Positions 4,244 to 38,970 of a DNA stretch of 64,000 bases are shown in pieces. Numbering within the stretch: the first letter of the stretch is position 1; each line of letters begins with the position of its first letter. The stretch lies in the NCBI GenBank assembly GCA_944384655.1, contig CALWUF010000015.1, positions 1 through 64,000 of the forward strand, read 5' to 3'. This stretch comes from an uncultured Butyricicoccus sp. Lineage in GTDB: Bacteria; Bacillota; Clostridia; Oscillospirales; Butyricicoccaceae. A program made the translations under genes and the position numbers. The notes under the pieces were generated by a model. It searched no databases, was not told where the DNA came from, and worked only from the letters and a program-made list of their open reading frames with translations.

Positions 4244-4291
4244 TGACGCACACGGCGTATGGCATGCATATTAATCCCATCAAATCGCAAC

Positions 4292-27308: not shown

Positions 27309-27878
27309 TCAGAAGGAGCGGATGATTTCTTCTGCGACATCGCGCTTGGTCTGGCGATAATTCATGGCGCGTTTTTCAATATACGCATGTGCTTCCGGTT
27401 CACTCATATGCCGTTCTGCCACAAGCAGACATTTGGCGCGGTCGATAATGCGGATATCTTCAATACGTTGGCGCAATAAACGGTTCTCTTTTTGCAGCGT
27501 ATATACGCGCATTCGCGAGGCATTGACCAAATGCAGCGTTTGATAGAAAAGTGGACGGGAGATTGGCTTGGCAATGACGAAAACACCGTCAGTTTCTACT
27601 CGCTCTGCCACAGAATCCGCAAGATCTGACTTGACAAGCATAAGCACACCAGCAGTTGTGGTATGACAGGCATGTACAGCGAATTCATGTCCAAATTCAT
27701 CTGTAAGCGGCGCATTGATTAGAATTAAATCCACATGATTTTCAATTAACACTCGGCGCGCTTCATTACAGGAACTGGTAACCAGGATTCGATCCGGGCG
27801 CTGTCCACCCGCCTGAATCAGCTCCAGAAGCATATCTGCACTTTTTTTAGATGCAGTTACCAATAATATTTTATCCAA
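27309..27878 (-). CDS. ANTAR-domain RNA-binding antiterminator
   Basis: Protein of about 189 residues: an N-terminal response-regulator-like receiver domain (about 1-115), a coiled coil (LQKENRLLRQRIEDIRIIDR) and a C-terminal ANTAR domain with RAKCLLVAERHMSEPEAHAY and the conserved MNYRQTKRDVAEEII. ANTAR proteins bind hexaloop RNA hairpins and prevent termination. It lies 78 bp after glnA. Leaders of the glt operon, glnN and amt contain matching hairpins, so these are its likely targets. Start: TTG at 27878, 8 nt after GAGAGG; a GTG at 27887 directly abuts that site. Confidence 0.9.
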   Translation of the reverse strand: MDKILLVTASKKSADMLLELIQAGGQRPDRILVTSSCNEARRVLIENHVDLILINAPLTDEFGHEFAVHACHTTTAGVLMLVKSDLADSVAERVETDGVFVIAKPISRPLFYQTLHLVNASRMRVYTLQKENRLLRQRIEDIRIIDRAKCLLVAERHMSEPEAHAYIEKRAMNYRQTKRDVAEEIIRSF

Positions 27879-27956
27879 TATTGACACCTCTCTGTGGCGT
27901 GAGACTTACATTTTATACTGCCATGGTACGAAAAGCAGCAGACACACCACAAGCTG

Positions 27957-29279
27957 TCAGTACGCAGAAAAATACAGCGAATCAATCATAGCAGATTTAT
28001 CTGATGCGTCAACATATCTGTTCCATTCGCTTGATTTTGCCGACAAATATGCGTGGATAATTTTCTCTGGCAGAGACCGATGCACAAATTCGCTGTTTTG
28101 TGCCGCTCTGATTGCTTCATTTAAGTTGCTCGGCAAACTGTCATATTCTCGTACAAGTGAAGCCGGAACATCATATAGATTCAGATTGCATGGATCGCAC
28201 AGCTTGAGACCGCGTTCAATGCCTTCCATGCCTGCCCGGATAAGCAAAGAGAATGCAAGATATGGATTTGCACATGGGTCGGGTGAACGCAGCTCCATAC
28301 GTTGATTGACACCATGCGCTGCCGGAATTCGGATGAGCTGCGAACGGTTTTGATGGCTCCATGTAATATACCGTGGCGCCTCATAATTGCCAAAACGATC
28401 GTAAGAATTGACCAACGGATTGAGAAATGCTGAAATTTCATAGCAGCGGGTGAGGATACCCATGATGAAACTCTCAACCACAGGTGAATGCGATTCATCC
28501 GGATTGCGGAACAGATTTTCCCCGTGCTGGAACAGCGACAGATTGATATGCAGACCATTGCCGGCATGATCACGGAACAATTTCGGCATAAACGATGCAT
28601 ACAGACCGTTTGATGCTGCCAATGTTTTGACTACGCTGCGGAAGGTAATCATATTATCCGCAGCGATAACCGCAGAATCATAGGCAAAATCAATCTCGTT
28701 TTGCCCAGGTCCCTGTTCATGATGGGACGCTTCCGGGCGCATATTCATTTCTTCCAACGTCAGGCATATCTGACGGCGTACATTTTCACCTTTGTCCAGC
28801 GGTGCAATGTCGAGATAGGATGCATTGTCATGTGGGATTTTTGTGGGCAGACCATCTTCATCTTGCCGCAGCAAATAAAATTCACATTCCGTACCGATTT
28901 TTACAGAATACCCCAGCCGCCGCATATCTTCCTGCGCCTGCCGCAGCACCTGACGACCATCACCTTCAAATGGTGTGCCATCCGGATATTTGATGTCACA
29001 GAAAAAACGCACAACACGACCTTGTGATGGACGCCATGGCAAAACAGAAAGTGTGGTCGGATCAGGGAATAACAACAGATCAGACATATCAATATTCATG
29101 AAGCCGCGGACTGCGGAGGCATCAAAGGTAATGCCTTCTTCAAAGGCACGGGATAACTCCCGCGGCATGATGGAAATATTTTTCTGCATGCCAAAAATGT
29201 CGCAAAAAGCCAATCGAATAAATTTTACATCATTTTCTGAGATGTACTGCATAACCTCACGATAGGTGTAATCGTTCAT
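27957..29279 (-). CDS. glnA: Glutamine synthetase type I
   Basis: Protein of 440 residues, the size of GSI-alpha. The N-terminal beta-grasp domain is followed by the catalytic domain with GTECEFYLL, EQGPGQNEIDF, GNGLHINLSL and NRSQLIRIPA. It condenses glutamate and ammonia. AAGGAG precedes the ATG. A strong terminator hairpin lies between gltB3 and glnA with no room for a promoter after it, so glnA is read either by read-through from the glutamate synthase operon or from an unseen promoter. The ANTAR regulator follows. Confidence 0.95.
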   Translation of the reverse strand: MNDYTYREVMQYISENDVKFIRLAFCDIFGMQKNISIMPRELSRAFEEGITFDASAVRGFMNIDMSDLLLFPDPTTLSVLPWRPSQGRVVRFFCDIKYPDGTPFEGDGRQVLRQAQEDMRRLGYSVKIGTECEFYLLRQDEDGLPTKIPHDNASYLDIAPLDKGENVRRQICLTLEEMNMRPEASHHEQGPGQNEIDFAYDSAVIAADNMITFRSVVKTLAASNGLYASFMPKLFRDHAGNGLHINLSLFQHGENLFRNPDESHSPVVESFIMGILTRCYEISAFLNPLVNSYDRFGNYEAPRYITWSHQNRSQLIRIPAAHGVNQRMELRSPDPCANPYLAFSLLIRAGMEGIERGLKLCDPCNLNLYDVPASLVREYDSLPSNLNEAIRAAQNSEFVHRSLPEKIIHAYLSAKSSEWNRYVDASDKSAMIDSLYFSAY

Positions 29280-29375: not shown

Positions 29376-30098
29376 TCAGTTAAAGGTATACATACGCTTA
29401 TATGGGCTGTTGGAATTCGGCGTCAGGACATAAAATCTCTCACGCAGGAGCGCGTCTGGATCGCCGCCGAAATTCTCACAATAATCCTTGACATGATCTA
29501 AAATAGAAGCCTTGTCTTCATCTGTTGCAACCTCTGCTTTGATCTGAACCGGGATGTCCGGTTCTTCATCACATCGCAGGAAGATACGTCCGCCATGCAT
29601 GCCGGTACCACAGAAAAATCCAGTCGGCTGTTTGCCTTCACAGCCCTTGCCGAGGACGATGATCACACCGCCGGCTTGATATTCACCCAGGAAAGAACCG
29701 GCTTTGCCGCCAATGACCATGACGGGGATATGGTCTTTATACTGTTTCATATGGATACCTGCGCGATAACCGGCATCGCCTTTGATCAGGATCTTACCAC
29801 CCCGCATGCCATAGCCTGTGGTATCGCCGCAGTTTCCGTCGATGATAATGGAACCGCTGTTCATGGTATCACCCGTTGCATCCTGTGCATTGCCATTGAC
29901 CAGAATGGTGGAGCCGTCCAGATATGCACCCAGCGCATTGCCTGGTGTACCAGTAATGATAATATTCTTCCCTCTGGAAGCGGCGCCGACATAGCGCTGA
30001 CCGATCAGATTATCCAGAAAAATTTCAGAGTCCTCACAGGCGCGAACCCAATTGTTGAGGTCTTCAAAATGCATGAGATCTACATTTAATTTCTTCAT
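29376..30098 (-). CDS. Glutamate synthase GXGXG domain protein (split GltB, domain 3)
   Basis: Protein of 240 residues made of the right-handed beta-helix found at the C-terminus of the glutamate synthase large subunit, with the repeated G-x-x-G-x-G pattern (for example GNCGDTTGYGMRGGKILIKG). In the full enzyme this domain holds the ammonia tunnel between glutaminase and synthase. Here it is a separate polypeptide, as in archaeal-type split GOGAT. It is the fifth gene of the glt operon, 18 bp after the flavoprotein gene. Confidence 0.88.
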   Translation of the reverse strand: MKKLNVDLMHFEDLNNWVRACEDSEIFLDNLIGQRYVGAASRGKNIIITGTPGNALGAYLDGSTILVNGNAQDATGDTMNSGSIIIDGNCGDTTGYGMRGGKILIKGDAGYRAGIHMKQYKDHIPVMVIGGKAGSFLGEYQAGGVIIVLGKGCEGKQPTGFFCGTGMHGGRIFLRCDEEPDIPVQIKAEVATDEDKASILDHVKDYCENFGGDPDALLRERFYVLTPNSNSPYKRMYTFN

Positions 30099-30116
30099 AA
30101 AGATTCGTCCTTTCCT

Positions 30117-31364
30117 TTAGTGCGGCTGTGCGAGCTTCTTCGCGCGTTCCGCTTTGGCAAATGCCATCAATTGCGGATGCTGACGAATCAGATCAAAGTC
30201 GATGGTATCCAGCGGAACCTGGTCGCGGATCAGGGAAGTATAAATACCGCCGCGATCTACATCGCCGATCAGGATAAAGCCAACCAATTTGTTGTCGCGG
30301 ACAACCAGTTTTTTGTATGAGTTCTCCGTAGTTGTTATGAATGCTTCGCCGTCATAGCTGCCTGCGGTGATCATATGCAGACCGAGGAAGCCGGATGCAT
30401 TCATCGGGAATGCCTGATCGAATACCTTGTCCCCGCCTGCCATATTGACGCCTGCGGCTTCACCCTGCTGATATGCATTCGGCAGGATTGCCAGAATACG
30501 GTCCGTATCTGCCGCAATGTCATGTGAAACCGTGCAGTCACCGGCAGCATAGACACCCGGCACTGTGGTTGCACTGTGGGTGTTTACCAGGATGCCCCGG
30601 TTGACTTCACAGCCAATTTCTTCTGCAAGGCTGGTATTGGGACGGACGCCGACTGCAACAACCAGAACGTCAAAATCCAGTTCCATACCACTTTGGAAGA
30701 TTGCGTGGTTCGGCGTGGAGAACCTGGCAACGGAATCAGACAGATAGAACTTCATGCCCAAATCTTCCAGATAACGCTGGAGGAAGGAGGAACCGTATTC
30801 ATCCAGTACATTGGGCAGGATGCGCGGCGCCATATCGACAATGGTCAACGATTTGGACAGATGAAGAATACCTTCCGCACACTTCAGACCGATCAGACCT
30901 GCGCCGATAATCAGTACATCTTTGTCCTTTTGCTCGCCCAGAAGCTCCGCCAGACGATGGGCATCATCCAGTGTCATAAAGGGCGTCTGACGTTCAACGG
31001 TATCCAGCCCCTCCATGGGTGGGACAAACGGACGTGAACCGGTGCAGATTGCCAGCTTGTCATACGAAACTTTTTCGCCATTTTCCAGGATAACAGCTTT
31101 GATATTTTTGTCAATGCTGGTGACTGTGCGACCGAGCATGGCTGTTACATGATTTGTTTCATAAAAATCGAGTGGGCGGTAATTCATCTTTTCCTCGGTG
31201 GTTTTGCCGAGCAGCAGATAAGAGATGAGCGGGCGACCATAGGTAAAATGCGGTTCACTGGAAATCAGGACGATTTCACCATATTTATCGACGGAACGGA
31301 TGCCTTCAACCGTACCAATCGCAGCAGTTGCATTGCCGATGATAACATATTTCACTTTGCTCAC
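30117..31364 (-). CDS. NAD(P)/FAD-dependent oxidoreductase of the split glutamate synthase
   Basis: Protein of 415 residues, a pyridine nucleotide-disulfide oxidoreductase fold. The FAD site is near the N-terminus (VIIGNATAAIGTVEGIR), the NAD(P) site is VLIIGAGLIGLKCAEG at about 150-165, and the second FAD motif VYAAGDC is near 275. Like NADH oxidase-type enzymes it probably passes electrons from NAD(P)H through the adjacent FeS protein to GltB2. The GTG start overlaps the FeS gene stop by 4 bp, indicating coupling. Confidence 0.88.
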   Translation of the reverse strand: MSKVKYVIIGNATAAIGTVEGIRSVDKYGEIVLISSEPHFTYGRPLISYLLLGKTTEEKMNYRPLDFYETNHVTAMLGRTVTSIDKNIKAVILENGEKVSYDKLAICTGSRPFVPPMEGLDTVERQTPFMTLDDAHRLAELLGEQKDKDVLIIGAGLIGLKCAEGILHLSKSLTIVDMAPRILPNVLDEYGSSFLQRYLEDLGMKFYLSDSVARFSTPNHAIFQSGMELDFDVLVVAVGVRPNTSLAEEIGCEVNRGILVNTHSATTVPGVYAAGDCTVSHDIAADTDRILAILPNAYQQGEAAGVNMAGGDKVFDQAFPMNASGFLGLHMITAGSYDGEAFITTTENSYKKLVVRDNKLVGFILIGDVDRGGIYTSLIRDQVPLDTIDFDLIRQHPQLMAFAKAERAKKLAQPH

Positions 31365-31789
31365 CTCTCCTCAAATACAATGGCATTGTTCGGACATCCG
31401 GCAACACATTGTGGTATACCGTCTGCATTCTTGGTACATAGCTCACATTTCTGAACTGCGCCCGCCTCTGAGGTGCTGATGCAGCCATACGGACAGGACA
31501 GAACGCAAGTATAGCAGCCGACGCATTTATCGGAGTCGATAGAAATGACACCGTCCTGAATGGAGAGCGCACCGGAAATACAACCCTTGACACACAGGGG
31601 ATTGTCACAATGGCGGCAGGAAACAGCAAAATTGATGCTGTCACTTTCTTCTACACGGATACGCGGGGCGATGGTTTTGCCTTTGAGCGCCTTTACCATA
31701 TCATCAACGCCGGAATTGGCAAATGCACAGTTATATTCGCAAAGATGGCATCCGAGACACCATTTCTCATTTACATATACTCGTTTCAT
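31361..31789 (-). CDS. 4Fe-4S ferredoxin-like electron-transfer subunit
   Basis: Protein of 142 residues with four cysteine clusters: CLGCHLCEYNC, CRHCDNPLCVKGC, CVGCYTCVLSC and CELCTKNADGIPQCVAGC. This is the arrangement of DmsB/HycB-type polyferredoxins with up to four 4Fe-4S clusters. It most likely wires the flavoprotein to the FMN synthase subunit of the split glutamate synthase. GGGAGG precedes the ATG. It sits between gltB2 and the flavoprotein gene. Confidence 0.9.
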   Translation of the reverse strand: MKRVYVNEKWCLGCHLCEYNCAFANSGVDDMVKALKGKTIAPRIRVEESDSINFAVSCRHCDNPLCVKGCISGALSIQDGVISIDSDKCVGCYTCVLSCPYGCISTSEAGAVQKCELCTKNADGIPQCVAGCPNNAIVFEER

Positions 31790-31807: not shown

Positions 31808-33313
31808 TTATTCACCAGCATGCTTGATGCCCAGGATTTCCAATTCCTTTTCGTTGAGACCGATGCCGCGGAGCATCAAACGGTTGCCGCGCAGCGCCTC
31901 AATGGAATTGATACCCATGCCGCCCATCATCTCACGAATTTCATGCCCCCAGGCGGTGAGCAGGTTGATCAGGCGTTCAGAACCAATATCCGGATTCAGA
32001 CGTTTTACCAGTTCAGGGCGCTGCGTTGCAATGCCCCAGTTACACTTACCGTTCTGACAGGTGCGGCACAGATGACAGCCGAGTGACAGCAGCGCAGCAG
32101 TTGCGATGTAAACGGCATCTGCACCGAGCGCAATTGCCTTGATGATATCAGCGGAGTTGCGGATGGAGCCGCCGACGACGATGGAAACATTGTCGCGGAT
32201 ACCTTCTTCCCGCAGACGCTGGTCAACCGATGCGAGTGCGAGTGCAATGGGAATGCCGACATTGTCGCGGATACGGGTGGGAGCAGCGCCTGTACCGCCG
32301 CGATACCCGTCGATGGCGATGATATCTGCACCGGAGCGCGCAATGCCGGAAGCAATTGCCGCAACGTTGTGTACAGCAGAGATCTTAACAATGACAGGCT
32401 TTTTATATGCGGTGGCTTCTTTTAAAGAATATACCAATTGACGCAGATCTTCAATAGAATAAATATCATGATGCGGGGCGGGGGAGATGGCATCTGTGCC
32501 TTCCGGAATCATACGGGTACGGGAAATATCCGATGCAACTTTTGTGCCGGGCAGATGTCCGCCGATGCCCGGCTTTGCGCCCTGACCAATTTTGATTTCA
32601 ATGGCAGCGCCTGCGTCCAGATAATCTTTTTCTACGCCGAAACGACCGGATGCAACCTGAACAATGGTGTTGTCACCCCATTTATAAAAATCTTCGTGCA
32701 GACCGCCTTCACCTGTATTATAATAGGTTCCCATGGCTTTGGATGCACGCGCCAGAGACTCGTGTGCATTGTAGCTGATGGAACCATAGGACATGGCGGA
32801 GAACATAACAGGAATGTCAAGCTCCAGACGCGGCGACAAATTCGGGATAATTTTGCCGTTTTCATCGCGTTCAATGGTGGTCGGTTTTTTGCCAAGGAAC
32901 GTGCGGATTTCCATCGGCTCACGCAGCGGGTCAATGGATGGATTGGTGACCTGGGAAGCATTGATTAACATCTTGTCCCAATAGATCGGGTAATTCTTCG
33001 GGTTACCCATGGAGGACAGCAATGTACCGCCGGAATTTGCCTGGCGATAAATTTCTTCAATGACTTCACCCGTCCAGTTGGCATTTTCGCGGAACTGATG
33101 ATTGGTCTTCGTGATCTTCAGGGCACGGGTCGGACACAGGGAGACGCAGCGATGGCAGTTGACACACTTGCTTTCGTCGGAGACCATTTTTTGAAGATCG
33201 GTATCAAAATGATGTACTTCGTTTGCGCATTGGCGTTCACAGACCCGACAGGCAATGCAGCGATCCGGATTGCGCAGAACTTCAAATTGGGGATATAAAT
33301 ACTCAATAGCCAT
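31808..33313 (-). CDS. FMN-binding glutamate synthase subunit (split GltB, domain 2)
   Basis: Protein of 501 residues. The N-terminus carries a two-cluster ferredoxin (CIACRVCERQC and CVNCHRCVSLC), followed by the FMN/3Fe-4S synthase barrel with MSYGSISYNAHESLARA, GQGAKPGIGGHLPG, ISPAPHHDIYSIEDL and the cluster CHLCRTCQNGKCNWG. It transfers the glutamine amide nitrogen to 2-oxoglutarate. The fused ferredoxin marks the archaeal/clostridial type. It lies 6 bp after the glutaminase gene in the five-gene glt operon. Confidence 0.93.
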   Translation of the reverse strand: MAIEYLYPQFEVLRNPDRCIACRVCERQCANEVHHFDTDLQKMVSDESKCVNCHRCVSLCPTRALKITKTNHQFRENANWTGEVIEEIYRQANSGGTLLSSMGNPKNYPIYWDKMLINASQVTNPSIDPLREPMEIRTFLGKKPTTIERDENGKIIPNLSPRLELDIPVMFSAMSYGSISYNAHESLARASKAMGTYYNTGEGGLHEDFYKWGDNTIVQVASGRFGVEKDYLDAGAAIEIKIGQGAKPGIGGHLPGTKVASDISRTRMIPEGTDAISPAPHHDIYSIEDLRQLVYSLKEATAYKKPVIVKISAVHNVAAIASGIARSGADIIAIDGYRGGTGAAPTRIRDNVGIPIALALASVDQRLREEGIRDNVSIVVGGSIRNSADIIKAIALGADAVYIATAALLSLGCHLCRTCQNGKCNWGIATQRPELVKRLNPDIGSERLINLLTAWGHEIREMMGGMGINSIEALRGNRLMLRGIGLNEKELEILGIKHAGE

Positions 33314-33319
33314 GATGGA

Positions 33320-34420
33320 TTATTCCTTTCCTTGCGCGTCTTCATTTAAGGTTACAATAACCGGCTCGCCGCCGCGCGGCGCCCAGATTTTATCCAGTTC
33401 CGGCTGGATGACGCGGATTGCGGCTTCTTCAGAGGCAATATAAACATCCTCATCCTTTTCACCCACGACCATAGAACGCAGTTTGAGGCGGTCATTGAGT
33501 GCCATCACGCCACCGGTAAAGCCGAGCATGATGGAAAATGGTCCGTTGATGAGCAGACCTGCGAATGCATCGCGCAGATATGTATATTCCGCTTTTTGCT
33601 GCGGCGGCATCTTTTCGATGGTGGACCAGAAGGGAGCAGCGACAACATGGGCGGCTTCTTCCAGGGTCAACCCTTTTCTGCGGATCAGGTAATCAAAAAT
33701 ATAAGTAATCGCTTCCGTATCAGTGAGCAGGTCACATTTGTAACCGTGCATTTCGATGGAACGGCGATTCGCGTCATAAGAAGAAATTTCTCCGTTATGC
33801 ACGATTGTAAAGTCCAGCATGGCAAACGGATGTGCACCGCCCCACCAGCCGGGGGTATTGGTGGGATACCGACCATGTGCAGTCCAGGAATATGCTTCAT
33901 ATTCTTCCAGCCGGTAATATAGCCCGACATCTTCCGGGAAGCCAATGGCTTTGAATACACCGCAGTTTTTGCCGCTGGAAAAGACATATGCGCCCGCAAA
34001 TTTATGGTTGATCCTGGTGACGCAGCGCACGACAAATTCATCTTCGGAAAGCTGTGTTTCAATCAGCTTATAACGGCGCGGTACGACAAAATAGCGCCAG
34101 ATCAGCGGTTCGTCCGTGATGGATGGATGCTTGCGGGTCGGGATGCGGGACATGGATGCAATTTCAAAGTGCTCTTCGAGAAACTTCTCACAGATATCCT
34201 TGACAGACGGATCGTCATAGAACAGATGGAATGCATAACAGTCCGCATATTCCGGATAGATGCCATAAGCGGCAAAACCGCCGCCCAGACCGTTGGAACG
34301 GTCATGCATCGTGGAAATAGAACGGATGATTTCAGTGCCGTCTGTCCGGCGACCGTCCTTGTGGAAGATGCCCGAGATCGCACATCCCGAAGGGATATGA
34401 TATTGACCTTCTTTTAGCAT
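33320..34420 (-). CDS. Class II glutamine amidotransferase subunit (split GltB, domain 1)
   Basis: Protein of 366 residues with a class II (Ntn) glutaminase fold: the likely nucleophile Cys13 in SGCAISGI, ARGRYPT-like HGRYPTNTPGWWGGAHPF, and VHNGEISSYDANR. It releases ammonia from glutamine for the synthase subunit. Ntn nucleophiles must be N-terminal, so twelve residues would have to be removed, as happens to longer GltB propeptides. AGGAGG precedes the ATG. It is the first gene of the glt operon, whose leader carries an ANTAR-type hairpin and terminator. Confidence 0.9.
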   Translation of the reverse strand: MLKEGQYHIPSGCAISGIFHKDGRRTDGTEIIRSISTMHDRSNGLGGGFAAYGIYPEYADCYAFHLFYDDPSVKDICEKFLEEHFEIASMSRIPTRKHPSITDEPLIWRYFVVPRRYKLIETQLSEDEFVVRCVTRINHKFAGAYVFSSGKNCGVFKAIGFPEDVGLYYRLEEYEAYSWTAHGRYPTNTPGWWGGAHPFAMLDFTIVHNGEISSYDANRRSIEMHGYKCDLLTDTEAITYIFDYLIRRKGLTLEEAAHVVAAPFWSTIEKMPPQQKAEYTYLRDAFAGLLINGPFSIMLGFTGGVMALNDRLKLRSMVVGEKDEDVYIASEEAAIRVIQPELDKIWAPRGGEPVIVTLNEDAQGKE

Positions 34421-34565
34421 GATAAATTCCTCCTAATATTCCTTCACATTATCAATAGGATACGAGTCAGCGTACTGAATGATGTCATTGCCGCATAGGA
34501 TATATCGTAAGAAATACACCGTTGTACTGATACGAAAAGCCGGGAACATGCCCCGGCAATGCCGC

Positions 34566-34631
34566 AAAAACAAAAAAGCGTCCATTCCATAACATACAGG
34601 CAAACTTGCCTTTGTGCTATGGAATGAACGC
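34566..34631 (-). terminator. Attenuator terminator in the glt operon leader
   Basis: A 14-bp stem (34618-34631 with 34578-34591, one G-U) whose long loop contains AGGCAA/TTGCCT, followed on the minus strand by TTTTTTGTTTTT. It lies about 150 nt before gltB1. Its 5' arm is shared with the hexaloop hairpin at 34624-34641. Confidence 0.85.
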
Positions 34632-34641
34632 CGTTGTTCAT
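34624..34641 (-). promoter_or_regulatory. ANTAR-type hexaloop hairpin, glt operon leader
   Basis: On the minus strand ATGAAC-[AACGGC]-GTTCAT forms a perfect 6-bp stem with a hexaloop having A at position 1 and G at position 4, the known ANTAR-recognition pattern. It starts within a few nucleotides of the predicted transcription start and excludes the terminator 3' to it. Confidence 0.7.
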
Positions 34642-34648
34642 TGCATTT

Positions 34649-34677
34649 ATTCTATAATAAAGGTCGGGAAACGTCAA
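34649..34677 (-). promoter_or_regulatory. Promoter of the glt operon
   Basis: Minus strand TTGACG (34672-34677) and TAGAAT (34649-34654), spacer 17 bp. Predicted start near 34642. Confidence 0.7.
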
Positions 34678-34811: not shown

Positions 34812-34840
34812 TTGACAGATTGGCGAGCTGAGGATATAAT
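34812..34840 (+). promoter_or_regulatory. Promoter P1 of glnN
   Basis: TTGACA at 34812-34817 and TATAAT at 34835-34840, spacer 17 bp: a consensus-grade promoter. Predicted start near 34847, upstream of the attenuator. Confidence 0.8.
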
Positions 34841-34851
34841 AAACAGCGTAA

Positions 34852-34867
34852 ACAGCAAAGGCGCTGT
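34852..34867 (+). promoter_or_regulatory. ANTAR-type hexaloop hairpin, glnN leader
   Basis: ACAGC-[AAAGGC]-GCTGT: 5-bp perfect stem, hexaloop with A1 and G4, closing pair C-G as in the glt leader. It starts about 5 nt after the predicted transcription start and is mutually exclusive with the terminator at 34860-34895. Confidence 0.7.
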
Positions 34868-34895
34868 GGATGATCCAATCCGCGGCGCTATTTTT
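34860..34895 (+). terminator. Attenuator terminator in the glnN leader
   Basis: An uninterrupted 12-bp stem with G-U wobbles (34860-34871 with 34878-34889), 6-nt loop, then ATTTTT. It is about 95 nt before the glnN start and after a strong promoter, so it acts on glnN. Confidence 0.85.
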
Positions 34896-34900
34896 ATTAC

Positions 34901-34989: not shown

Positions 34990-37065
34990 ATGAATAACAT
35001 TCCGGAAATATTTGCCGAGAACGTATTTAATGAAAACGTCATGCGCGATAAGCTGCCGAAAGAAGTTTTCAAAAAGCTGATGAAGACGATCGACCTCGGC
35101 GAGCCGCTCGACGTGAGCATTGCAAATGTCGTTGCAAATGCGATGAAGGATTGGGCAGTGGATAAGGGTGCAACCCATTATACGCATTGGTTCCAGCCGA
35201 TGACGGGTATTACCGCTGAGAAGCATGACTCCTTTATCAGCCCGACCGCAGGCGGCAAGGTGATCATGTCGTTCGGCGGCAAGGAATTGATCCAGGGCGA
35301 ACCGGATGCTTCTTCTTTCCCGTCCGGCGGTTTGCGCGCTACCTTTGAGGCGAGCGGCTACACCGCATGGGATCCGAGTTCCTATGCATTCGTCAAGGAC
35401 GGTACACTGTACATCCCAACTGCATTTTGTTCGTATACTGGCGAGGCGCTGGATAAGAAGACGCCGTTGCTGCGTTCTATGGATGCGATCAGCAAGCAGG
35501 CCTGTAGAATTATGGGCTTGTTTGGCAAAAATGTCAAGCGCGTGACGACCACGGTAGGTCCGGAGCAGGAATATTTCCTGGTTGATAAAAAATATTATGA
35601 TCAGCGCAAGGATTTGATCTTTACCGGTCGCACATTGTTTGGCGCAATGAGCCCGAAGGGTCAGGAGATGGAAGATCATTATTTTGGCACCATTAAACCG
35701 CGTATCGCTGCATTCATGGCTGACCTTGATGTTGAACTGTGGAAATATGGCTTGCTGGTAAAGACCAAACACAACGAAGTTGCACCGGCACAGCACGAAA
35801 TTGCGCCGATCTTTTCTACCACGAACATTGCGACGGATAACAACCAGTTGTTGATGGATATCGCAAAGAAGGTTGCGCTGAAGCATGGCATGGTTTGCCT
35901 GCTGCATGAGAAGCCGTTCGATGGCGTCAATGGTTCCGGTAAGCATAACAACTGGTCGATGTCCACCGATGCGGGTGAGAACCTGCTGAACCCGGGCAAA
36001 AATCCGAAGGAAAATGCACAGTTTATGCTGATTCTGACGGCTGTTATCACTGCGGTTGATAAGTATGCAAAATTGATGCGTCTGTCCGTCGCTTCCGCAG
36101 GCAATGACCATCGTCTGGGTGCAAATGAAGCGCCTCCGGCAATTGTTTCCGTATTCCTCGGCGACGAACTGGAGCGCGTTGTCTGCGATATCATTGAGGG
36201 CGGTTCATCCGCAGTTGGCGGTCAGTCGAAGATTGAGCTTGGCGTCACCACTTTGCCGGTATTCCCGAAGGATAACACAGACCGCAATAGAACCTCTCCG
36301 TTTGCTTTTACCGGTAACCGCTTTGAGTTCCGTATGCCCGGTTCGTCCCAGTCGATCGGCTGCATCAATATGATGCTGAACACCGCAGTTGCCGACGTAT
36401 TTAAGCATTATGCTGACGAACTGGAAGGTGCAGAAGACTTCCACAAGGCATTGAATGCACTGATCAAGCGCGAATTGACTGCGCATCAGCGCGTCATCTT
36501 CAATGGCAACGGCTATGATGATAACTGGGTTGAAGAAGCAGAGAAGCGTGGTCTGCCAAACCTGCGCAGTACGCCGGAGGCACTGGCTGCATATGATGAA
36601 TTCGTTGATCTGTTTGAAGAGACGGGTGTTCTGAGCGAAGCCGAATTGAAATCCCGTCAGGAAATTTTGCTCGAAGAGTATGCAAAAACCATCAAGATCG
36701 AGTCCCGCACCATGGTTGACATGGTCAAGAAGGATATTCTGCCGGCTGTTACCAGCTATGTCAAGGAACTGTCTGAGCTTGCATGTAATAAGAAGACACT
36801 GGGACTGAATGCAGATCTGGAAATCAAGCAGATTGAGCGTTTGTCTGCACTGGCTTCCGAGACCTATGACAAAAATGCTGCGCTGGAAGGCGTTATTGCG
36901 GGTGCGGCTGATGTCGAGGGTGCACAGCAGGCTGCATATTATGAGCATGAGACCGTTATCCCGGCGATGGGCGCCCTGCGCGCGGTTGTCGATCAAATGG
37001 AAGTCAATACTGCGGAGAAGTATTGGCCGTTCCCGGCATACGACAAGCTGCTGTTTGGCATCTGA
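34990..37065 (+). CDS. glnN: Glutamine synthetase type III
   Basis: Protein of 691 residues, the large GSIII form. The region from about 50 to 100 ([20 protein letters not shown]) is diagnostic, and the catalytic segments [14 protein letters not shown] and the nearby [14 protein letters not shown] are intact. It makes glutamine from glutamate and ammonia. The ATG at 34990 follows GGAGGTG at 9 nt. Its leader has a strong promoter followed by an ANTAR-type hairpin overlapping a terminator, so expression likely depends on nitrogen status. The cell also encodes GSI 6 kb away. Confidence 0.97.
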
Positions 37066-37106: not shown

Positions 37107-37120
37107 ACACAAAGGCGTGT
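37107..37120 (+). promoter_or_regulatory. ANTAR-type hexaloop hairpin before amt
   Basis: ACAC-[AAAGGC]-GTGT: short 4-bp stem, same hexaloop and closing C-G pair as the glnN leader. Its loop and 3' arm are the 5' arm of the terminator at 37111-37165. The stem is shorter than the other two, so this site is weaker on its own. Confidence 0.55.
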
Positions 37121-37165
37121 ACACAATTCCCTGAATGGGAGAAGGTGTACACGCCTTTTCTTTTC
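37111..37165 (+). terminator. Terminator between glnN and amt, probable attenuator
   Basis: A 14-bp perfect stem (37111-37124 with 37145-37158) with an inner CCC/GGG pair in the loop, then TTTTCTTTT. It ends glnN transcription, and its overlap with a hexaloop hairpin suggests conditional read-through into amt. Confidence 0.85.
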
Positions 37166-37213: not shown

Positions 37214-37257
37214 CCGGTTTGTACAATATAAAATCTTTGACAAAGGGGAATATTCAT

Positions 37258-38970
37258 ATGGATACCACTTCGATTATGAGTGTGCTTGCGGATCATGCAT
37301 CCGCAATCGACACATCGTGGACACTGCTTGGCGCAGCCCTTGTCTTCTTCATGCAGGCAGGTTTTGCTATGGTAGAGACTGGCTTTACCCGTGCAAAGAA
37401 CGCTGGCAACATCATCATGAAGAACTTGATGGACTTTTCGCTTGGCACTCCGATTTATTGGTTGTTTGGCTTTGGCATCATGTTTGGCGGCAGCGGCGCA
37501 TTGATCGGCGGTCTGGATTTCATGACCAATGGCGGTGAAGGCGGATTCACCACGCTGATTTTCCAGACGGTGTTCTGTGCAACGGCTGCAACCATCGTTT
37601 CCGGTGCAATGGCAGAAAGAACCAAGTTCTCTTCCTACTGCATCTATTCCATGATTATCAGTGCAATTGTTTATCCGATTTCCGGTCATTGGGTCTGGGG
37701 CGGCGGCTGGCTGCAGCAGATGGGCTTTCATGATTTTGCCGGCTCTACGGCGGTACACATGGTAGGCGGTATTTCTGCCCTGATTGGCGCGTCATTCCTT
37801 GGTCCGCGTATTGGCAAGTATGGCAAGGATGGCAAGCCCAAGGCAATCCCTGGTCATTCTCTGACGCTCGGCGCATTGGGCTGCTTTATTCTGTGGTTCT
37901 GCTGGTTCGGTTTCAACGGCGCGTCTACCGTTGCGATGACCGACGGCGCATATGAGACAGCGGCTTCTGTCTACGTTACGACCAACCTGGCTGCTGCTGT
38001 TGCAACTGTTACCGTTATGTGCATCACTTGGATCCGCTACAAAAAGCCGGACGTTTCCATGACGTTGAATGGTTCTCTGGCCGGATTGGTAGCCATTACA
38101 GCGGGCTGTGATATGGTCACGCCGTTTGGTGCCGCAATGATCGGTATCTGCGCGGGATTCGCCCTTGTATTTGGCGTTGAATTTGTTGAAAAGGTTCTCA
38201 AGGTTGATGACCCGGTAGGCGCTGTAGGGGTGCATTGCGTCAACGGTGCAATGGGTACTCTTTTGACCGGTCTGTTCGCACAGGATGTCGGTCTGTTCTA
38301 TGGCGGCGGCACACATTTCCTTCTCATTCAGATTCTCGGTGTTGCTGCTGTTGCTGCATGGGTTGCTGTTACCATGACCATCGTATTTTGGGTCATGAAG
38401 CATACCATTGGTTTGCGTGTCAGTGAAGAAGAGGAAATTCGCGGTCTCGACATCATGGAGCATGGTTTGACTTCTTCCTATGCAGACTTTATGCAGGTTC
38501 CGACTGTCAATGGTCTGTATAAGCCGGAAGGTGAATATGCCCCCGCAACCACACCGGTTTCAATGGATGAGGCTGTCCCGGCAACGGAGGTTCCATCTAC
38601 TGGTTCTGATGGTCATAAATTGTCCAAAGTTGTCGTCATCTGCAAGCAGTCGCGTTTTGAGGAACTCAAAAATGCATTGGAAGAGATTGGCGTAGCCGGC
38701 TTGACCATGACCAATGTCCTCGGATGCGGTGTAGAAAAAGGCGCTACGGAGTTTTATCGCGGCGTTCCGATCAACGCAACCCTGCATCCGAAGATTAAAC
38801 TTGAAATGGTTGTCAGCCGTGTTCCGGTTGAACAGATCATTGATGTGTGCCGCAAGGTGTTGTACACCGGTCATATCGGCGACGGCAAGATCTTTATTTA
38901 CGATGTACAGAACGTCGTCAAGGTTCGTACCGGTGCAGTCGGTTACGACGCACTTCAGTATGAAGACTAA
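37258..38970 (+). CDS. AmtB ammonium channel fused to a PII (GlnB) domain
   Basis: Protein of 570 residues. Residues 1 to about 420 form an Amt/Mep channel with about 11 helices (AGFAMVETGFTRAKNAGNII, FNGASTVAMTDGAYETAA, GVHCVNGAMGTL). After a Pro/Ala-rich linker, residues 454-570 form a full PII domain; the T-loop GATEFYRG has its Tyr near residue 500, and VGYDALQYED ends it. PII normally plugs AmtB from the cytoplasm when nitrogen is sufficient; here channel and regulator are one chain. The ATG at 37258 follows AAAGGGG. It follows glnN. Confidence 0.95.
   Translation: MDTTSIMSVLADHASAIDTSWTLLGAALVFFMQAGFAMVETGFTRAKNAGNIIMKNLMDFSLGTPIYWLFGFGIMFGGSGALIGGLDFMTNGGEGGFTTLIFQTVFCATAATIVSGAMAERTKFSSYCIYSMIISAIVYPISGHWVWGGGWLQQMGFHDFAGSTAVHMVGGISALIGASFLGPRIGKYGKDGKPKAIPGHSLTLGALGCFILWFCWFGFNGASTVAMTDGAYETAASVYVTTNLAAAVATVTVMCITWIRYKKPDVSMTLNGSLAGLVAITAGCDMVTPFGAAMIGICAGFALVFGVEFVEKVLKVDDPVGAVGVHCVNGAMGTLLTGLFAQDVGLFYGGGTHFLLIQILGVAAVAAWVAVTMTIVFWVMKHTIGLRVSEEEEIRGLDIMEHGLTSSYADFMQVPTVNGLYKPEGEYAPATTPVSMDEAVPATEVPSTGSDGHKLSKVVVICKQSRFEELKNALEEIGVAGLTMTNVLGCGVEKGATEFYRGVPINATLHPKIKLEMVVSRVPVEQIIDVCRKVLYTGHIGDGKIFIYDVQNVVKVRTGAVGYDALQYED

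Follow-up and report, generated by a model that had tools for sequence, protein, structure and literature searches.

A lone hexaloop at the predicted 5' end of the glt leader as a putative target of a NitR-like ANTAR antiterminator in a Butyricicoccus-like bacterium

The glt-glnN locus and its three hexaloop switches

The window (the whole stretch of DNA analysed, 64,000 nt) was found to carry a glt-glnA operon on the minus strand and, divergent from it, glnN and an amtB fusion gene on the plus strand (Table 1). Among named organisms, the nearest relatives of the locus are found in Butyricicoccus-like Clostridia. The operon ends with the gene of a NitR-like protein, the only ANTAR gene in the genome, and in most of the related loci examined, including those of Treponema and Fibrimonadales bins, the ANTAR gene likewise follows glnA immediately.

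Table 1. Genes and regulatory features of the glt-glnN locus
Feature	Position	Strand	Remarks
NitR-like ANTAR protein gene	27309-27887	minus	Last gene of the glt-glnA operon
glnA, glutamine synthetase type I	27957-29279	minus	
Further glt genes: 4Fe-4S (ferredoxin-like) protein, pyridine nucleotide oxidoreductase, GXGXG subunit	29376-31789	minus	
Glutamate synthase FMN-domain subunit with 4Fe-4S	31808-33313	minus	Pfam Glu_synthase
First glt gene, class-II glutamine amidotransferase subunit of glutamate synthase	33320-34420	minus	Pfam GATase_2
glt leader intrinsic terminator	34565-34632	minus	U-tract about 34577-34565
glt single hexaloop hairpin, AATGAAC[AACGGC]GTTCATT	34623-34642	minus	Predicted antiterminator; 5' arm 34642-34636, loop 34635-34630, 3' arm 34629-34623
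glt promoter, TTGACG-17 nt-TAGAAT	34649-34677	minus	10/12 matches
glnN promoter, TTGACA-17 nt-TATAAT	34812-34840	plus	12/12 matches
glnN leader hexaloop hairpin, ACAGC[AAAGGC]GCTGT	34852-34867	plus	
glnN leader terminator	34860-34896	plus	Uses the 3' arm of the same hairpin
glnN, glutamine synthetase type III	34990-37065	plus	Pfam GSIII_N
Third switch, ACAC[AAAGGC]GTGT	37107-37120	plus	glnN-amtB gap; loop 37111-37116
Terminator overlapping the third hairpin	37113-37163	plus	
amtB fused to a P-II (GlnK) domain, one frame	37252-38970	plus	Pfam Ammonium_transp and P-II

The hairpin of the glt leader begins 6 nt past the end of the -10 box, and its first base is where the transcript would be expected to start (about 34642) on the basis of the promoter; promoter and hairpin follow one another in the same order in relatives. 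The terminator stem, of 18 pairs, runs from loop base G4 (34632) through the 3' arm of the hairpin to approximately 34577. The two mutually exclusive structures thus have the 3' arm in common, together with loop bases G4, G5 and C6. The leader folds at -39.5 kcal/mol compared with -16.3 for shuffled sequences (z -7.8), and the hexaloop hairpin by itself at -6.7 kcal/mol. A further terminator-like hairpin without a hexaloop lies between the switch and the glt start codon (34539-34557, minus strand). Comparison with Rfam returned no relevant match above the gathering score.

A first-pass annotation of this DNA had described the glt hairpin with its AACGGC loop and a terminator starting inside it, and the sequence is as it stated. 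It had also proposed that the same terminator/antiterminator switch is present in the divergent glnN leader; the overlap is indeed seen in both leaders and the closing pair agrees, but the loops are not identical (AACGGC versus AAAGGC), having A1, A2, G4, G5 and C6 in common together with the C-G closing pair. The third copy, in the gap between glnN and amtB, was added here, as were the location of just one hexaloop where the RNA is expected to begin and ANTAR/NitR as the likely regulator. This third switch has no clear promoter of its own, and sites of its CAC type are kept in relatives. It probably attenuates read-through coming from glnN.

The frequency expected by chance was estimated from Markov-simulated copies of the window, counting AANGRY hexaloops on a stem of at least 4 pairs with an overlapping terminator. 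Three such sites were observed against 0.075 expected per 64 kb on both strands, and simulated 570-nt intergenic regions (n = 4000) contained one site in 0.05% of cases and two sites in none. Another A1/G4 match, at 4289 (AACGCG), is probably due to chance, with 1.25 expected per window.

The organism's own genome was also searched by pattern. One site (C30:19520-19529, minus strand; about 5521 in L273) has a promoter, a single AAAGGC hexaloop and a terminator with no close same-strand gene downstream; it could be a short RNA titrating the ANTAR protein, or chance. At another (C28:15050-15059, minus strand; about 6051 in L272), a promoter-like sequence, an AAAGGC hexaloop and a weaker terminator are closely followed by the gene of a LuxR-type regulator.

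Conservation of the hexaloop and its association with the ANTAR gene

The sequences preceding the first glt gene were collected by gene homology alone, which gave 52 distinct regions. An A1/G4 hexaloop overlapping a terminator was found in 50 of these, with the 15 alternative letter pairs for loop bases 1 and 4 totalling 11 as a control, although this, like most of the comparative evidence, comes from related genomes which are not independent. The two exceptions retain a hexaloop hairpin, with the loop GATGGC in one (L092) and AAAGGC with a weak U-tract in the other (L040). A leader of this kind also occurs in Thermoclostridium caenicola, which can be cultivated. The loop consensus is AANGRY, with A1, A2 and G4 near-invariant.

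Compensatory stem changes, to which the first-pass annotation had pointed as a check, are present in relatives, the core pairs being GAAC/GTTC, GGAC/GTCC or AAAC/GTTT. The outer pairs are looser, and one of the family's genera has a stem of only four pairs. In an alignment of 58 rows, changes on both sides were found at five of the seven stem pairs, and the covariation score of 0.314 (shuffled mean 0.194) was equalled in none of 500 shuffles and drops when the pairing partners are slid. As the stem search demanded 4 pairs, full pairing of the inner four is partly by construction; the letter changes are not. The 3' arm of the terminator was also found to change together with the arm common to hairpin and terminator.

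Among 87 genomes of the family, the exact glnN hexaloop pattern was identified in 40, and its reversed control in none. It is present in 38 of the 52 genomes with an ANTAR gene versus 2 of the 35 without (Fisher p ~1e-10, uncorrected for kinship and therefore only indicative, since kinship makes the genomes non-independent). In one of these two (G036) the ANTAR gene appears to have been cut by the end of a contig, as the operon appears to be that of locus L045, where the contig breaks off within this gene; in the other (G074) the pattern match and glnN are on different contigs. Where the glnN upstream region of an ANTAR-less genome is readable, the switch occurs in G036 only. Neither the ANTAR gene nor the glt genes were detected in a genome of the same genus which is 88% complete (G033). 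Its glnN upstream region (L111) keeps the promoter and the terminator, but only GGC remains of the hexaloop, which may be a natural loss.

These observations bear on two explanations which dispense with an RNA-binding protein. The leader might act as a protein-free attenuator, with constant read-through or a response to the rate of transcription or to pausing in the leader, given that the two exclusive structures arise from folding alone and that the G033 terminator is kept without its hexaloop. This is considered very unlikely, as A1, A2 and G4 are near-invariant and the presence of the loop follows that of the ANTAR gene; A1 and A2 are paired in none of 68 terminators, so terminator pairing cannot account for their conservation. 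The inverted repeat could otherwise be read as a DNA operator for a dimeric repressor or activator, being a near-perfect palindrome directly 3' of the -10 box, a common location for operators. Several features make this highly improbable: the 6 nt between the arms are conserved and lack symmetry (AANGRY), G-U pairs are tolerated in the stems (10 of 58 at one pair), almost all copies overlap a terminator, the element tracks the gene of an RNA-binding ANTAR protein, and the three copies in the window differ in their half-sites (GAAC, CAGC, and ACAC) with the loop nearly unchanged.

One hexaloop in place of two

The ANTAR target has been defined as two hexaloops, which are 5-12 nt apart in eut genes (PMC3369931). 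A single stem-loop was bound less well by EutV and deletion of the upstream loop, P1, abolished induction (PMC3369931), so that under the published model a single hexaloop should fail. According to the 2022 structure of EutV, the minimal binding site is one hexaloop, with both loops still needed for antitermination (PMC8934654). The same study calls for work on single-loop motifs; beyond that suggestion, no description of a single-hexaloop antiterminator was found in the literature searched, which consisted mostly of papers outside subscription.

No second hexaloop (P1) was found within 25 nt upstream of the glt hairpin, and with the -10 box ending 6 nt before the hairpin there is no room for one. 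The same holds across relatives, as the -10 box ends 1-12 nt before the hairpin in 112 of 117 sites with a recognisable promoter, again leaving no room. A convincing second loop was identified in only one of 139 distinct related sites, a relative's glt leader (L070, 3320-3375, plus strand) in which AAAGAT is followed by AAAGGC 8 nt apart. Seven upstream loops had been flagged in relatives, that of L070 among them; five overlap promoter hexamers and were rejected, and one (L034), a possible second loop, lies 22 nt before an amtB-type site. As a positive control, a comparable scan of the Klebsiella nasF leader recovers both of its loops (AATGGC and AAAGGC). A search around the family's other ANTAR genes yielded no dual-hexaloop site, and an Acetoanaerobium locus provided no usable control.

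The dual-hexaloop targets of Enterococcus faecalis eut (EutV), Klebsiella nasF (NasR) and Pseudomonas aeruginosa amiE (AmiR) resemble the leaders described here in having an A1/G4 hexaloop whose 3' arm lies in the terminator, and these systems likewise combine a genome-encoded ANTAR protein with nitrogen genes. Both nasF loops fit AANGRY, and the second is identical to many found in this study. The difference is the second hexaloop 5-12 nt upstream, required by EutV (PMC3369931), where the leaders here have one. Judged by its sequence, the glt leader matches an ANTAR target with regard to the A1/G4 hexaloop, exclusivity with the terminator and the accompanying ANTAR gene, without the second hexaloop.

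For Clostridium saccharobutylicum, antitermination of GS/GOGAT genes by NitR when nitrogen is limiting has been reported (Stutz, 2007, cited in PMC6316151). In C. thermocellum, the cluster Clo1313_2030-2036 is co-expressed as a whole, ANTAR gene included (PMC4676874). As in the present locus, the ANTAR protein is encoded within a glutamate synthase/glutamine synthetase cluster in both, but no hexaloop target is described for NitR in the portions of these two sources that were available (PMC6316151; PMC4676874). ANTAR antitermination of nitrogen genes is already known, and what differs is the single hexaloop at the expected 5' end. The RAT elements of SacY, BglG and LicT also consist of one protein-bound hairpin overlapping a terminator; however, they belong with another protein family, have a RAT sequence of 29-30 nt (PMC3369931) and show no sequence relation.

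A requirement for two loops could also be satisfied in trans, with one NitR dimer bridging the loops of the nascent glt and glnN RNAs, about 220 bp apart. Within the family the two elements keep their divergent arrangement (78 sites, with a spacing of mostly 200-240 nt), as they do at several loci outside it, and the EutV dimer in the crystal contacts the loops of two RNA molecules, although the EutV authors judged such bridging unlikely (PMC8934654). There is no divergent partner within 450 nt at 25 sites outside the family and at 16 amtB-type sites inside it. As so many sites stand alone, bridging of divergent RNAs cannot be a general requirement and was rejected as such; for the glt leader it is regarded as highly doubtful.

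The NitR-like protein and the proposed switch

The NitR-like protein has a C-terminal ANTAR domain (PF03861, E 2.3e-16) and can be aligned with Rv1626, EutV, and AmiR. Its AlphaFold model (mean pLDDT 93) gave a top TM-score of 0.78, to RNA-bound EutV. The RNA-contact residues of EutV include Met172, Tyr164, Lys143, and Lys147 (PMC8934654). In alignment with the PDB sequence, Met172 corresponds to Met and Tyr164 to His (as in AmiR), both Lys143 and Lys147 correspond to Arg, and Arg142 is replaced by Ile. The residues aligned to the EutV contacts, His167, Met175, Arg146, and Arg150, are kept in 43-45 of 45 homologues.

The receiver domain is degenerate, with Asn58 at the site of the phospho-acceptor Asp found in EutV, and as a result phosphorylation of the NitR-like protein is unlikely. 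Of the 45 homologues, 34 carry Asn at this site and 11 carry Asp. No N-terminal acidic pair was seen. A conserved P-L-x-D-E motif lies just past the phospho site in the NitR family (the protein described here and homologues in L032-L078). Glutamine synthetase, as a constant neighbour, is a candidate partner of NitR by analogy with TnrA in Bacillus (PMC6316151).

Taken together, the glt leader very probably functions as an ANTAR-type transcription antiterminator, in which the NitR-like protein would bind the single hexaloop at the 5' end and prevent formation of the terminator. We infer from the sequence a scheme that comprises the start site, NitR binding, the direction of control, the nitrogen-limitation signal and positive feedback. 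On the minus strand, RNA polymerase would start at about 34642, and the first structure made would be the hairpin with the AACGGC hexaloop. Left unheld, its 3' arm and G4-G5-C6 would pair with downstream RNA as the terminator, giving a transcript of about 70 nt. The active NitR-like protein, presumably under nitrogen limitation, would bind the hexaloop and block the terminator, whereupon the polymerase would read on into glt-glnA-nitR, the position of nitR within the operon providing positive feedback. The glnN leader and the glnN-amtB gap would be further targets of this protein.

On a wider scale, the balance tilts slightly towards a widespread class of ANTAR targets with a single 5'-end hexaloop, occurring in Clostridia and in Treponema and Fibrobacterota bins, recognised by NitR proteins whose receiver is degenerate and overlooked in earlier surveys that required two hairpins; such NitR proteins may sense nitrogen via glutamine synthetase and not via a kinase. 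Why two loops are needed when one is sufficient for binding is stated as an open question in PMC8934654. A large natural set of single-loop sites would make this question directly testable, in that either NitR dispenses with the recruitment loop or this loop is replaced by the location at the 5' end. The single hexaloop is also a simple sequence mark by which the nitrogen regulons of gut Clostridia can be recognised.
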